Below are positions 27,691 through 32,890 of a stretch of 44,164 nucleotides of DNA, piece after piece. Under the pieces are notes generated by a model. The model did not search any database and had not been told where the DNA came from. It saw only the letters and a list, made by a program, of their open reading frames with translations. Both the position numbers and the translations under genes were made by a program. Source of the DNA: Candidatus Poribacteria bacterium (GTDB lineage: Bacteria > Poribacteria > DTPJ01 > WJIO01); NCBI GenBank assembly GCA_014730235.1, contig WJIO01000173.1:1-44164 (forward strand), given 5' to 3'. Each line of letters opens with the position of its first letter. The first letter of the stretch is position 1.

Positions 27691-28527
27691 ATGTTAAAGA
27701 ATTTGGTAACTAAAAACATTATGCTTATTAGTTTGATGATTTTAAGCATGACTATGACTTCCAGTGTCTTTGGTGATGAAGAGCTTATAATCAACGGTTC
27801 TACTACAGTTCTTCCAATTGCCCAGAAAGTTGCTGAAGTATATATGAAAATGTATCCGGAAGTGAGTATTTCTGTATCTGGTACAGGTTCTGGTGATGGA
27901 ATAAAGGCACTTATTGATGGAACTACTGATATTGCCAACGCTTCAAGGTTCATTAAAGGCAGCGAAATTAACAAGGCTATAGAAAACGGTGTTTTTCCTG
28001 TAGCCCATAGAGTGGCTCTGGATTCCATCGTTCCTGTTATTCATCCCAGTAACACAGTAAATGACCTTACTATGGGACAGCTAAAGGATATTTATACAGG
28101 TAAAATAACTAACTGGAAGGAAGTAGGCGGCCCGGATAAAGAGATTGTTGTTATCTCTCGTGATACCAGTTCAGGTACTTACGAAGTCTGGCATAGTCTT
28201 GTTCTGGAAAAAGAAAGGGTTACTAACAAGGCATCTCTTCTGGCTTCCAATGGTGCAGTTGCAACTGCTATAGCTAATAATGAGCATGCAGTTGGTTATA
28301 TTGGTTTGGGTTATTTAAATAAAGAAGTTAAGATGATTGATGTAAATGGTGTTACTCCTGATGCCGAAACTACCCGGAACGGTAAATATCCAATTGCCAG
28401 AGATCTTTTTATGTTTACAGAAGGCTGGCCAAGAGGTGAAATAATGAATTTCATTAATTTCCTGGTAAGCCCAAAAGGTCAGAAGGTAGTTGGCGAAGTT
28501 AAATATGTACCCATATACAGTATTTAA
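27691..28527 (+). CDS. pstS: Phosphate ABC transporter substrate-binding protein
   Basis: A 278-aa periplasmic phosphate-binding protein. I chose ATG 27691 (GGAGG at 27678-27682, 8 nt away) over the in-frame TTG at 27673. Residues 1-28 are a signal peptide ending SSVFG. Phosphate contacts: NGSTTV (36-41), SGTGSGDG near 63-70, and SRDTSSGTY with R157, S161, G162, T163. Hinge and lobe segments include MGQLKDIYTGKITNWKEVGG (128-147), which is echoed in the PstC loop. The protein has no lipobox, so it is soluble. It heads a pstSCAB-phoU cluster and should be induced by low phosphate through the upstream Pho-box-like repeats. Confidence 0.95.
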   Translation: MLKNLVTKNIMLISLMILSMTMTSSVFGDEELIINGSTTVLPIAQKVAEVYMKMYPEVSISVSGTGSGDGIKALIDGTTDIANASRFIKGSEINKAIENGVFPVAHRVALDSIVPVIHPSNTVNDLTMGQLKDIYTGKITNWKEVGGPDKEIVVISRDTSSGTYEVWHSLVLEKERVTNKASLLASNGAVATAIANNEHAVGYIGLGYLNKEVKMIDVNGVTPDAETTRNGKYPIARDLFMFTEGWPRGEIMNFINFLVSPKGQKVVGEVKYVPIYSI

Positions 28528-28591
28528 AAATACAAGCTTTTACGGGTATGATTTGTTAATAATTAAGAACCAAATATAACAGGAGGAATAG

Positions 28592-28618
28592 TTAAGAGGT
28601 AGAAAAACTACCTCTTAA
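28592..28618 (+). ncRNA. Hairpin between pstS and pstC
   Basis: A perfect 11-bp stem TTAAGAGGTAG/CTACCTCTTAA with an AAAAA loop. An isolated AGGAGG at 28581-28586 precedes it without a start codon. No T-run follows. It may protect the pstS mRNA 3' end or limit read-through, giving more PstS than permease, as is common for binding-protein genes; it also occupies the space between AGGAGG and the pstC ATG. Confidence 0.5.
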
Positions 28619-28632
28619 TGCCTCGATATTGA

Positions 28633-29889
28633 ATGAATATGTCGCGAAAATTTAAAGAAAAATCTATAAGAAATATTTTTCTGGTTTTATCCATAACTGC
28701 CATTGCAACCCTCGCAGGTATAGCGTTCTTTCTTTTCAAAGAAGCAATACCTACCTTTACCAAAAAATATCCTGTATCCATACATATATACGTGCCGGTA
28801 GTTCATCGGGAAAACCAGATATGGAAAAAATCTATAAACAGAGAAAAACTAAAAGATGTATTTTCCGGCAGGATAACCAATTGGGATGAATTGGGTGGCG
28901 AACCCGGAAAGATTAACGTGATTTCGTATGCTGAAAATACCCCTGAAGGTAAAAGATGGATAGAAGAGCTTTTGGAAGGTGATACACTAGCACCTGATGC
29001 TGTAAAAGTAGATAGCGCCAGGGAAATGTCCAGAACTATAATCCGAAATAGGGAAAACTCCATAGGTTTCATGGAAAGGGAGGAAATTGGTAGAGGTCTC
29101 AAGGAATTTCAGTTGGTGACTCGTGTTGGGATTACAGGATTTCTTTTTGGTAGAGATTGGTATCCTCCGCCGAATGAACCGCCTTCGTTTCAAACCTTAC
29201 CAATTGTTCTTGCTTCTATAATTGTAACATTCTTCTCGGCTGTAATAGCCATACCATTGGGTGTTGGTTCTGCTATTTACATGAGTGAAATCGCTCATCC
29301 AAAAACAAACGAAGTACTGAAACCTGTGATAGAATTATTTGCCGCCCTGCCATCGGTTATTATAGGTTTCTTCGGTATGGTGGTTGTTGCGCCGTTCCTA
29401 CAAAGGCGTTTTGGTATACCCAATGGTCTGAATCTGACAAATGCTTCTGTTCTTCTGGCTTTTATGGCTGTTCCTACTATTGCCAGCGTTTCTGAGGATG
29501 CCTTACGCGCAGTTCCGCCAGGTCTTAAGGAGGCATCTTATGCTCTTGGAGCTACAAACTGGGAAACTACGTGGAGAGTCGTATTTCCGGCTGCGCTTTC
29601 CGGTATATCTTCCGCTGTAATACTTGGTTTGGCCCGTTCAATGGGAGAAACTATGGTTGTCCTGATGGTGGCTGGCGGCGCTGCTATGATTCCTACCAGC
29701 TTATTTGATCCAGTTCGTCCCATGACTGCCGCCATTGCCGCTGAAATGGGTGAAGCTCCCAGGGGTGGTATGCATTATCACGCCCTTTTTGCTATTGGGG
29801 TTACCCTGTTTATATTGACCTTCTGCTTTAACCTTCTGGCAGATTTTATTTCAAAGCGATATAGAGAGGCTGGTGAACGTGCAGCATAA
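28633..29889 (+). CDS. pstC: Phosphate ABC transporter permease PstC with PstS-like insertion
   Basis: 418 aa, about 80-100 longer than typical PstC. TM1 at about 14-36; then a periplasmic segment of about 130 aa; then the usual permease from GFLFGRDWYPPP (169-180) with five or more TM helices. The EAA-type loop is around 288-316 (EDALRAVPPGLKEASYALGA). Residues about 70-165 resemble lobe II of PstS: EKLKDVFSGRITNWDELGG aligns with GQLKDIYTGKITNWKEVGG. The phosphate contacts (SRDTSSGTY in PstS) read SYAENTPEG here, so binding is unlikely. Two in-frame ATGs (28633, 28639) are possible and the SD is weak. PstA starts inside its 3' end (17-nt overlap). The insertion is described further under findings. 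Confidence 0.92.
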   Translation: MNMSRKFKEKSIRNIFLVLSITAIATLAGIAFFLFKEAIPTFTKKYPVSIHIYVPVVHRENQIWKKSINREKLKDVFSGRITNWDELGGEPGKINVISYAENTPEGKRWIEELLEGDTLAPDAVKVDSAREMSRTIIRNRENSIGFMEREEIGRGLKEFQLVTRVGITGFLFGRDWYPPPNEPPSFQTLPIVLASIIVTFFSAVIAIPLGVGSAIYMSEIAHPKTNEVLKPVIELFAALPSVIIGFFGMVVVAPFLQRRFGIPNGLNLTNASVLLAFMAVPTIASVSEDALRAVPPGLKEASYALGATNWETTWRVVFPAALSGISSAVILGLARSMGETMVVLMVAGGAAMIPTSLFDPVRPMTAAIAAEMGEAPRGGMHYHALFAIGVTLFILTFCFNLLADFISKRYREAGERAA

Positions 29890-30763
29890 AGACAAAGACA
29901 TAGATAAAGGTCAAAACTGGCGAAAAATACAACAGATAATAGCCCATAATTTAATGCGTCTTACAGGTGTTATACTGGTGAGTGTATTGGCGATTATGCT
30001 GTTATTTGTTTTTGTAAGGGGTATAGGTGCTATAAGCTGGGAATTTCTGACCCAGTTTCCCAGGGATGAAATGACAAAAGGTGGTATATTTCCCTGTATA
30101 GTTGGGACGTTTTACCTGACTATAGGGGCTGTTTTGCTTGCTTTGCCTCTGGGAGTTGCAACGGCAATATACCTATCTGAATACGCCAGAGAAGGTCGAC
30201 TTGTGAATACAATCAGGTTAGGGGTAAATAACCTAGCTGGAGTTCCATCTGTGGTCTTCGGTCTTTTTGGATTATCCCTGTTTGTTGTGACATTTAAATT
30301 TGGTGTATCTATCCTCGCCGGATCTCTGACCCTTGGATTTCTTATACTTCCCGTGATTATAAGGGCTTCGGAGGAGGCTTTGTTATCAGTTCCCCATAGC
30401 TATAGAGAAGCTTCACTAGCTGTAGGTGCTACCAAGTGGCAGACAGTTTATAAGATAGTCCTTCCCAACGCTTTACCGGGAATTTTGACTGGCTCAATTT
30501 TATCTATAGGCCGTGCTGCCGGGGAAACTGCACCAATCATGTTTACCGCTGCGGTTTTCATGACTTTCAAACTACCTGATACGGTTTTTAAACCTGTAAT
30601 GGCTTTACCCTATCATATTTATGTATTGGCAACCGCTGGCACACACATTGAAGAAACTCGTCCTCTTCAATATGGAACAGCACTTATACTTATTGCTCTG
30701 GTTCTGGGTGTAAATCTTTTTGCTATTATACTGAGAAATCACCTACGAAAAAAACGAGGATAA
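29873..30763 (+). CDS. pstA: Phosphate ABC transporter permease PstA
   Basis: A 296-aa permease, starting at GTG 29873 with GAGAGG upstream and overlapping pstC by 17 nt. A second GTG at 29879 is possible. TM helices: about 31-53, 80-105, 120-140, 150-170, 205-225 and 265-290. The EAA loop is visible as EEALLSVPHSYREASLAVGA near 175-194, contacting PstB. No periplasmic insertion, unlike PstC. It forms the transmembrane pair with PstC. Length and order are typical for pstSCAB. Confidence 0.95.
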   Translation: MNVQHKDKDIDKGQNWRKIQQIIAHNLMRLTGVILVSVLAIMLLFVFVRGIGAISWEFLTQFPRDEMTKGGIFPCIVGTFYLTIGAVLLALPLGVATAIYLSEYAREGRLVNTIRLGVNNLAGVPSVVFGLFGLSLFVVTFKFGVSILAGSLTLGFLILPVIIRASEEALLSVPHSYREASLAVGATKWQTVYKIVLPNALPGILTGSILSIGRAAGETAPIMFTAAVFMTFKLPDTVFKPVMALPYHIYVLATAGTHIEETRPLQYGTALILIALVLGVNLFAIILRNHLRKKRG

Positions 30764-30794: not shown

Positions 30795-31562
30795 ATGGAA
30801 TCAAAACAAGAAAAAGTTAAGATGTATTCAAAAGATCTCTCCGTATTCTACAGTGAATTCCAGGCTTTAAAAGAAATCAACATGGAGGTATATGAGAACA
30901 AAGTAACGGCTTTGATCGGTCCTTCAGGCTGTGGCAAATCCACCTATATCCGCAGCTTTAATCGCATGAATGATATTATACCTGGAATAAAAATTACCGG
31001 AAAAATCGTTTTGGATGGAGACAACATATACGAAGAAAATGTTGATGTAGTTGATATAAGAAGGCGTGTTGGTATGGTTTTCCAGAAATCAAATCCGTTT
31101 CCTAAATCCATATACGAAAATATTGCATATGGTCTGAAAATCAACAGGTATCCAAGAGGCGAAATAGCAGATCGGGTAGAAGAAAGTCTTAAGGGAGCGG
31201 CGCTCTGGGATGAAGTAAAAGACCGAATTCATGATTCTGCCCTGATGCTCTCCGGAGGGCAACAACAGAGGCTATGTATTGCAAGGGCTTTGGCCATACA
31301 TCCGGAAGTTATACTTATGGACGAACCTGCTTCCGCCCTTGATCCTATCGCGACGCAAAAGATTGAAGAATTAATAGAGCAGCTTAAAGAGAAGTATACT
31401 ATTGTGATTGTCACTCATAACATGCAACAAGCTGCCCGGGTATCCGATTATACTGCTTTCTTTTATCTTGGTGAGATGATTGAATTTGGTGAGACCAGCA
31501 AAATGTTTACAAATCCCGATAAACAAATGACTGACGAATATATCACAGGAAGGTTCGGATGA
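30795..31562 (+). CDS. pstB: Phosphate ABC transporter ATP-binding protein PstB
   Basis: A 255-aa ABC ATPase. Walker [10 protein letters not shown] (42-50), Q-loop in [11 protein letters not shown] (95-105), signature LSGGQQQRL (152-160), Walker [14 protein letters not shown] from 172, and H-loop in VTHNMQQA. The PFPKS stretch after the Q-loop is typical of PstB. The start is ATG 30795; the SD is unclear. The stop TGA overlaps the phoU start (ATGA at 31559-31562), so translation is coupled. It powers phosphate import with PstC and PstA. Confidence 0.97.
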
Positions 31563-32218
31563 TGCAGAGACATTTTGATGATGAATTAAGAGATTTAAAA
31601 GAAAATCTTGTATGTATGGGTAATGTTGTAGAAGACATGTTTCAAAAAGCCATGGATTCTCTTTTAGAGCGGGAAGAAAAACTCGCACAAGAAGTTATTG
31701 ATAGAGATGATGAGGTAGATAGACTGGAAGTTAAGATAGAAAATATGTCTATCGAATTAATTGTGTTACGCCAACCTGTCGCCTCTGATCTTCGTAAAAT
31801 TATAACTGCCCTTCATATAAACCGTCAACTGGAAAGAATGGGAGACAAAGCTGCTAATATTGCTGAAAGAAGTATAAAGTTACTGGGTTATCCACCTGTT
31901 AAACCCTATGTAGATTTACCCAGAGCCTTTGAAATTGTCAGAAGTATGGTCAGCGATACCCTGGACGCTTATATGAAGTGTGACATTAAACTGGCTATAG
32001 ATGTTATAGAACGGGACGGTAAGGTAGATGAGTTAAGAGATCAGATATTTCGTGAACTACTTACCTACATGCTTGAGGATAGCAAATATATACGGCCTGC
32101 ATTAGAGATTATCCTGGTATCCAGACATATTGAAAGAATTGGTGATCTGGCCACAGATATTTCCGAGGAAATAATATATACGGTACAGGGAGAAATCGTT
32201 AAACACCAATTCGACTGA
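31559..32218 (+). CDS. phoU: Phosphate regulatory protein PhoU
   Basis: A 219-aa all-helical PhoU with two repeated three-helix halves. The metal-cluster motifs are E/D-rich: [16 protein letters not shown] near 46-61 in the first half and [16 protein letters not shown] near 149-164 in the second. [15 protein letters not shown] (about 90-104) and [16 protein letters not shown] (about 190-205) are the matching helix ends. It connects the Pst transporter to the PhoR-type sensor kinase, repressing the regulon when phosphate is plentiful. ATG overlaps the pstB stop. No phoR/phoB genes are in the window. The last gene of the pst unit, it converges on the DUF47 gene 13 bp away. Confidence 0.96.
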
Positions 32219-32231
32219 TAATATTTATAAT

Positions 32232-32873
32232 TTACGTCTGTTTCTTTACGACCAAAGTTTCCAGTATTTCTGCTGCATCTTCAGCCACATCAGTTATCTC
32301 TGCTATTACATCTACTAGATGATTCAGATGTATTTTTCTGGCAAGTTCCAGGTCTTTTGAAAATATCTTACGTGATAATTTAGCTTCCAGAACATCAACC
32401 GATTGTTCAATCCGATGAACTTCCCCCGTTTTATCCCGAATTATGGAAAAATCCCTTGACATATTTAAAACACCTTCCTGAAGAGGTTTGATTATGGATA
32501 CTGATTCTTCAGCTATATTCCGAAAATCATCTATTAGTTCATCAGGAATATCAGGCCGTTGGGCTGTTATCATCTTGCAACAGTTCTGGGCCTGACCAGC
32601 GATTTCGTCTATAATATTTACCAGTTCCATCACATCCACTCTAAAAACAGGCAAAAAAGCCCCCTGGTGAAGCAGATCCGATATACTGCGGCGTATACCA
32701 TCAGCTTCGGATTCTGCTTTGTGAGTTTCTTCGGCATGTGACTCGGCTAAATCCATTTTGTTTTGCAGATATGAATTCAGAGATTTTAACATACTTTGAA
32801 GACATAATTCCACTTTATCAACATGCTCCTCAATCAGGCCTATAACTTTCTTTTCTGTTCCTTTTATCCGCAT
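32232..32873 (-). CDS. DUF47 family PhoU-like protein
   Basis: A 213-aa helical protein of the DUF47 (TIGR00153) family, related to PhoU. The body shows the repeating coiled-coil pattern, for example EETHKAESEADGIRRSIS near 49-66 and DVIAEITDVAEDAAEILE near 187-204. DUF47 genes usually sit beside a low-affinity Pit phosphate permease; none is seen here, and the gene converges tail-to-tail on phoU instead. I chose ATG 32873, preceded by GAGGA at 8 nt, over the in-frame TTG at 32888. It lies 17 nt after the LamG gene stop on the same strand, so it may be co-transcribed with mutL-LamG. Probably a regulator or accessory factor of phosphate uptake. Confidence 0.88.
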   Translation of the reverse strand: MRIKGTEKKVIGLIEEHVDKVELCLQSMLKSLNSYLQNKMDLAESHAEETHKAESEADGIRRSISDLLHQGAFLPVFRVDVMELVNIIDEIAGQAQNCCKMITAQRPDIPDELIDDFRNIAEESVSIIKPLQEGVLNMSRDFSIIRDKTGEVHRIEQSVDVLEAKLSRKIFSKDLELARKIHLNHLVDVIAEITDVAEDAAEILETLVVKKQT

Positions 32874-32890
32874 TGGGATATTCCTCAATA

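Follow-up and report, generated by a model that had tools for sequence, protein, structure and literature searches.

The phosphate importer encoded in the window (the whole 44,164-nucleotide stretch of contig WJIO01000173.1, from Candidatus Poribacteria bacterium, analyzed here) raises a question of architecture. Why should its permease subunit PstC hold, inside its own chain, what looks like one lobe of the phosphate receptor PstS, and what could such a lobe do there?

An additional domain in PstC

The pst operon is intact in the window, with pstS, pstC, pstA, pstB and phoU all present (Table 1). At its end, convergent to phoU, lies the gene for a DUF47/PhoU_div protein (32232-32888; PF01865, E=7.6e-29). 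The gap between pstS and pstC holds a 12-bp hairpin without a T-run (28591-28619, GUUAAGAGGUAG-AAAAA-CUACCUCUUAAU; intergenic z-score, -2.9), which could tune the expression of pstS relative to that of pstC.

Table 1. Features of the pst operon and of the lobed PstC in the window
Feature	Position	Strand	Evidence or remarks
pstS, encoding the complete phosphate-binding protein with both lobes (278 aa); immediately precedes pstC	27691..28527	+	TIGR02136 E=1.2e-79; PF12849 E=1.1e-42
Lobe II of the pstS product	~27991-28368	+	No other single sequence matched the PstC lobe as closely
pstC, permease plus inserted lobe	28633..29889	+	418 aa; TIGR02138, 280 bits; Foldseek top matches, E. coli PstC 9k3x/9k3y/9k3s
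TM1/N-terminal helix, residues 3-43	28639..28761	+	AlphaFold2 secondary structure; alignment with lobeless PstC
PstS lobe II-like domain in PstC, residues 46-168	28768..29136	+	Profile matches; lobe-only model against PstS structures, Z up to 10.8
Conserved PstS motif VFSGRITNWDELGG kept in the PstC lobe, residues 76-89	28858..28899	+	Alignments
SYAENTPEG, replacing the PstS phosphate loop SRDTSSGTY, residues 98-106	28924..28950	+	Alignments
PstC permease core, start FLFGRDWYPPP, residues 170-411	29140..29865	+	PF00528 E=2.5e-21; VIA-align to 9k3s_B Z=16.2, residues 171-361
pstA, without lobe	29873..30763	+	PF00528 E=8e-20
pstB, ATPase	30795..31562	+	PF00005 E=1.7e-30
phoU	31559..32218	+	PF01895 E=6.7e-48

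The pstC gene is a single open frame, and its product, the only good PstC of the genome, scored well above the equivalog cutoff of the TIGR02138 profile (196.45 bits). The original prediction held that this protein is about 80 to 100 aa longer than usual; longer it is, but that figure was too low, since the frames of lobeless relatives measure approximately 302 to 341 aa and the excess is therefore nearer 115 to 120 aa. The insert itself comprises about 120 aa and is placed between TM1 and the permease core, at a site where the alignment shows a short linker in the closest lobeless relatives (e.g., LFKEIKVLDFLLGRHWYPTYDPP in L130).

When searched alone against profiles, the insert gave significant matches to the PstS families (TIGR02136, E=5.6e-10; PF12849, E=1.4e-6), and the whole protein scored 25.8 bits against a cutoff of 27 bits. 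By BLASTP it was 30% identical to the adjacent PstS over 129 aa (E=3e-14). A phmmer search of the PDB at E values up to 6e-4 matched only periplasmic phosphate-binding-type proteins, all annotated as phosphate-binding or periplasmic substrate-binding except for Sll0540, which the fold search returned as a putative phosphate-binding protein. The similarity to lobe II of PstS thus stands, although the range first given for it (28840-29128) was slightly narrow: it spans approximately residues 46 to 165 (28768-29127). Only positions 94 to 185 of the 267 in the PstS profile are covered, without the other lobe or the two-lobed ligand cleft. The match to PstS lobe II is far beyond chance, profiles, BLASTP and predicted fold agree on it, and the domain lies, as proposed, in the TM1-TM2 periplasmic loop.

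The motifs on which the proposal was built are exact, namely, KDVFSGRITNWDELGG at residues 74 to 89 (28852-28899), INVIS at residues 94 to 98 and SYAENTPEG. The phosphate-contact loop of PstS has indeed been lost from the lobe. Its R...SGT signature is present in 154 of 156 PstS proteins, whereas the lobes, that of the window included, lack it; an SGT string occurs anywhere in the lobe region in just one of 52 lobed PstC rows.

Predicted fold of the lobe

The full-length AlphaFold2 model of the window PstC, built from 52 lobed PstC rows, had a mean pLDDT of 70. In Foldseek its first matches were the E. coli PstC structures (E, 9e-11), with the PstS structures 1twy and 4gd5 ranking lower. Since VIA-align of this model compared the permease part only, the lobe was modelled separately from lobed PstC rows and zero PstS rows, the latter being kept out because the fold test had to stay independent of them.

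The lobe-only model (pLDDT, 74.5) recovered the lobe II-type fold that had been anticipated. Its top PDB matches were all phosphate-binding proteins (Foldseek E, 4e-5), and the comparison with 9l8j gave the maximum VIA Z score (10.8; 3.3 Å over 105 residues), while the remaining PBP-type folds, LysR effector domains among them, started at a Z of about 6.5. The region matched, residues 71 to 208 of chain 9l8j_B, is a single contiguous lobe, and the insert of PstC, being one such lobe, can fold alone. Confidence in this fold prediction is moderate, not high.

Distribution of lobed PstC

The PstC proteins of Bacteroidales generally carry a comparable lobe, inserted at the same site, after TM1 and before the GxxWxP start of the core. 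An alignment search with the lobe as the query yielded 80 loci, all of them from Bacteroidota and nearly all from named Bacteroidales, and almost all corresponded to an intact lobed PstC. A genome scan with patterns from the single PstC copy of the window had found nothing, since that copy is divergent. Among 296 Bacteroidota genomes, a PstC match was obtained in 95, and 5 of these were lobed. In the small phylum of G278, two of nine genomes showed a match at E values up to 1e-50, both lobed. Across 386 genomes, of which some 300 sampled the other parts of Bacteria, the lobed proteins among the matches listed came from the window genome and G278 only; in this survey lobed proteins scored far above the cut, and a lobe too degenerate would escape alignment.

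Within the phylum of the window genome, the matches listed to P0001 or to the lobed profile A3 start at the core and contain no lobe, and those PstC proteins with long frames (411 to 434 aa) are not lobed either. In two of these genomes (G010, locus L010, 973-2247; G013, locus L019, 988-2247) an N-terminal DUF805 membrane domain is fused in frame to PstC, and the two frames examined by Pfam matched PF05656 (E, ~1e-15) plus PF00528. Several other genomes of family f3 have similarly long PstC frames.

The proposed survey of relatives thus returned lobeless PstC wherever one was found in the same phylum, and lobed PstC in Bacteroidales and in two genomes of the G278 phylum. Lobed PstC is clade specific and patchy. 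Bacteroidales PstC is usually of this kind, so that the idea of a lobe unique to the window genome was rejected.

A full PstS was encoded in all seven lobed genomes examined; an eighth record is a plasmid-labelled contig whose sole match was the lobe itself. The lobe therefore does not replace PstS, and that candidate role was discarded. As to gene order elsewhere, a Parabacteroides pst operon (L041, 2998-7810) reads pstC-pstA-pstB-phoU followed by an OprO/OprP porin gene, with no adjacent pstS, and in G278 and G386 a gene reading like an outer-membrane barrel lies just upstream of pstC.

Origin of the permease and of the lobe

In the permease tree, the window protein grouped with the lobeless PstC proteins of G299, G320, G207 and G219 (support, 99/97). 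Its identity with the G320 permease, from a phylum in which PstC was lobeless wherever found, is 59%, compared with 46 to 48% for the best permeases from its own phylum. Similarly, the window PstS is closest to those of G207, G299 and G320. The pstS-pstC pair (27691-29889) thus has its nearest kin outside its own phylum, unlike mutL, 4 kb away on the same contig, whose closest relative is in a genome of the same order (53%) and the next in the same phylum. Judged by the kinship of mutL, the contig is native to the lineage, which together with the foreign affinity of pstS and pstC suggests that the pst operon was acquired horizontally.

As for the lobe, it grouped in the lobe tree with the PstS of its own operon (80/91), and the Bacteroidales and G278 lobes formed a separate clade (100/97). 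Its pairwise score was also best with its own PstS among the 68 sequences compared (129; the best of the other lobes scored 104), and the two share private P and W residues. These affinities suggest a separate capture of the lobe from the upstream pstS. It is nevertheless quite possible, if somewhat doubtful on balance, that one ancient insertion was the source of the window lobe and of those in Bacteroidales and G278, followed by transfer, or by loss in the lobeless kin. Such a history would account for the identical insertion site and for the Y, E and F residues, rare in PstS, that the window lobe shares with the Bacteroidales lobes, and it is compatible with the AU tests, which rejected neither a single lobe clade (p=0.45) nor a single lobed-permease clade (p=0.12); it sits badly, however, with the nesting of the window permease among lobeless PstC proteins and with the affinity of the lobe for its own PstS. 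The alternative concerns descent and would be compatible with either a docking or a gating mechanism.

Duplication from a PstS gene, as originally suggested, is therefore plausible, the adjacent pstS being the best-scoring donor, but it is not proved, given the AU values. In the same way, the comparison of the lobe with local PstS proteins tended to the expected grouping without rejecting one lobe clade.

Proposed function

We tentatively prefer, at a little short of an even chance, the reading in which the ligand-incompetent PstS lobe II in PstC serves as a tethered accessory surface for docking or positioning soluble PstS. The position of the insert between TM1 and the core corresponds to the periplasmic face, on which the binding protein docks in this class of transporter. 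The lobe, in the first periplasmic loop, would touch PstS beside the translocation pore, and this contact would capture and orient the receptor, phosphate itself still being bound only by complete PstS. That such contact occurs and aids transport is suggested by analogy with MalF P2, a large periplasmic domain reported to contact MalE directly throughout the cycle (PMC3150292, its reference 98). Against this reading count the very long branch of the window lobe and the fact that most PstC proteins work without any lobe. The MalF P2 domain has, to our knowledge, no sequence relation to the PstC lobe, so the analogy is functional only.

The main rival to accessory docking is gating by mimicry, in which the tethered lobe would occupy the docking site of PstS lobe II and keep the resting transporter closed until loaded PstS displaced it. 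A lobe derived from PstS would inherit the docking face of PstS, and the ITNW..GG motif has been kept while the phosphate loop was lost, but the retained motif may be merely core forming, and a permanent local competitor would require a release mechanism; we consider such gating unlikely. A version with a wider claim, that receptor lobe II was captured on two or more independent occasions into one and the same PstC loop, with the phosphate loop lost each time, and that the resulting half-receptor mimic gates or competes with PstS docking, appears rather improbable.

The lobe of the window might also be a tolerated, drifting remnant, functionless in this genome, an idea to which its very long branch (3.39), its lack of close relatives and its missing phosphate loop lend some color. 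Yet the genome's sole PstC maintains these more than 120 codons in an intact frame, the core fold is retained in the predicted model, and purifying selection acts on comparable lobes elsewhere. In 19 independent Bacteroidales pairs, the median omega was 0.066 for the lobe and 0.028 for the permease; thus, the Bacteroidales lobe is under purifying selection, though evolving faster than the permease, and is hence functional there. Being both usual in Bacteroidales PstC and under such selection, the lobe is best regarded as a maintained domain and not as a decaying remnant, and we give little credence to loss of function in the window.

An assembly or binning artefact is scarcely credible, despite a draft genome of 451 contigs with 4.8% contamination, since the fusion is in frame and coding on both sides, mutL ties the contig to its order, and many named Bacteroidales records, some annotated pstC, share the architecture and refute an artefact as its source.

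To return to accessory docking, the lobe, with its worn phosphate loop, probably helps pump and catcher fit together. The lobed Bacteroidales proteins have already been deposited, the annotated records seen being labelled only 'phosphate ABC transporter permease subunit PstC', and a literature search, with most subscription journals outside its scope, found no published description of the lobe. Keeping in its chain one half of its own receptor, without the ability to bind, such an importer offers a natural test of PstS docking and of transporter signalling to PhoR. Since Bacteroides and Parabacteroides carry the lobe, its role is testable in culturable gut bacteria by lobe deletion.

Comparison with known systems

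The closest counterparts are the Bacteroidales PstC proteins, such as WP_005853879.1 of Parabacteroides distasonis and WP_272702192.1 of Bacteroides finegoldii, which have the lobe at the same site, have lost the phosphate loop, are about 40% identical over the full length and have the same operon partners. Their lobe is shorter, however (about 109 aa, versus 123 aa in the window), and belongs to its own clade, and the window permease, unlike the Bacteroidales-type lobed PstC, groups with lobeless proteins. E. coli PstC in the PstSCAB complex (9k3s, 9k3x and 9k3y) resembles the window protein in the fold of its permease core, but with 319 aa it contains no periplasmic lobe. Conversely, PstS and other PBP_like_2 proteins (9l8j, 4gd5, 4exl and 1twy) resemble the PstC lobe in lobe II sequence and predicted fold, whereas the latter is one lobe only, membrane tethered and without the R...SGT loop.

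Binding-protein material is likewise covalently joined to a permease in OpuA (7ahh) and GlnPQ. Importers of that SBD-fused type carry a complete two-lobed binding domain instead of a soluble receptor, whereas the window PstC carries half a domain that coexists with soluble PstS. Finally, in the maltose importer, one permease subunit likewise has a large folded domain, MalF P2, in a periplasmic loop; no match between this domain and the PstC lobe was seen here, and the contact with the binding protein, reported for MalF (PMC3150292), is proposed for the PstC lobe.
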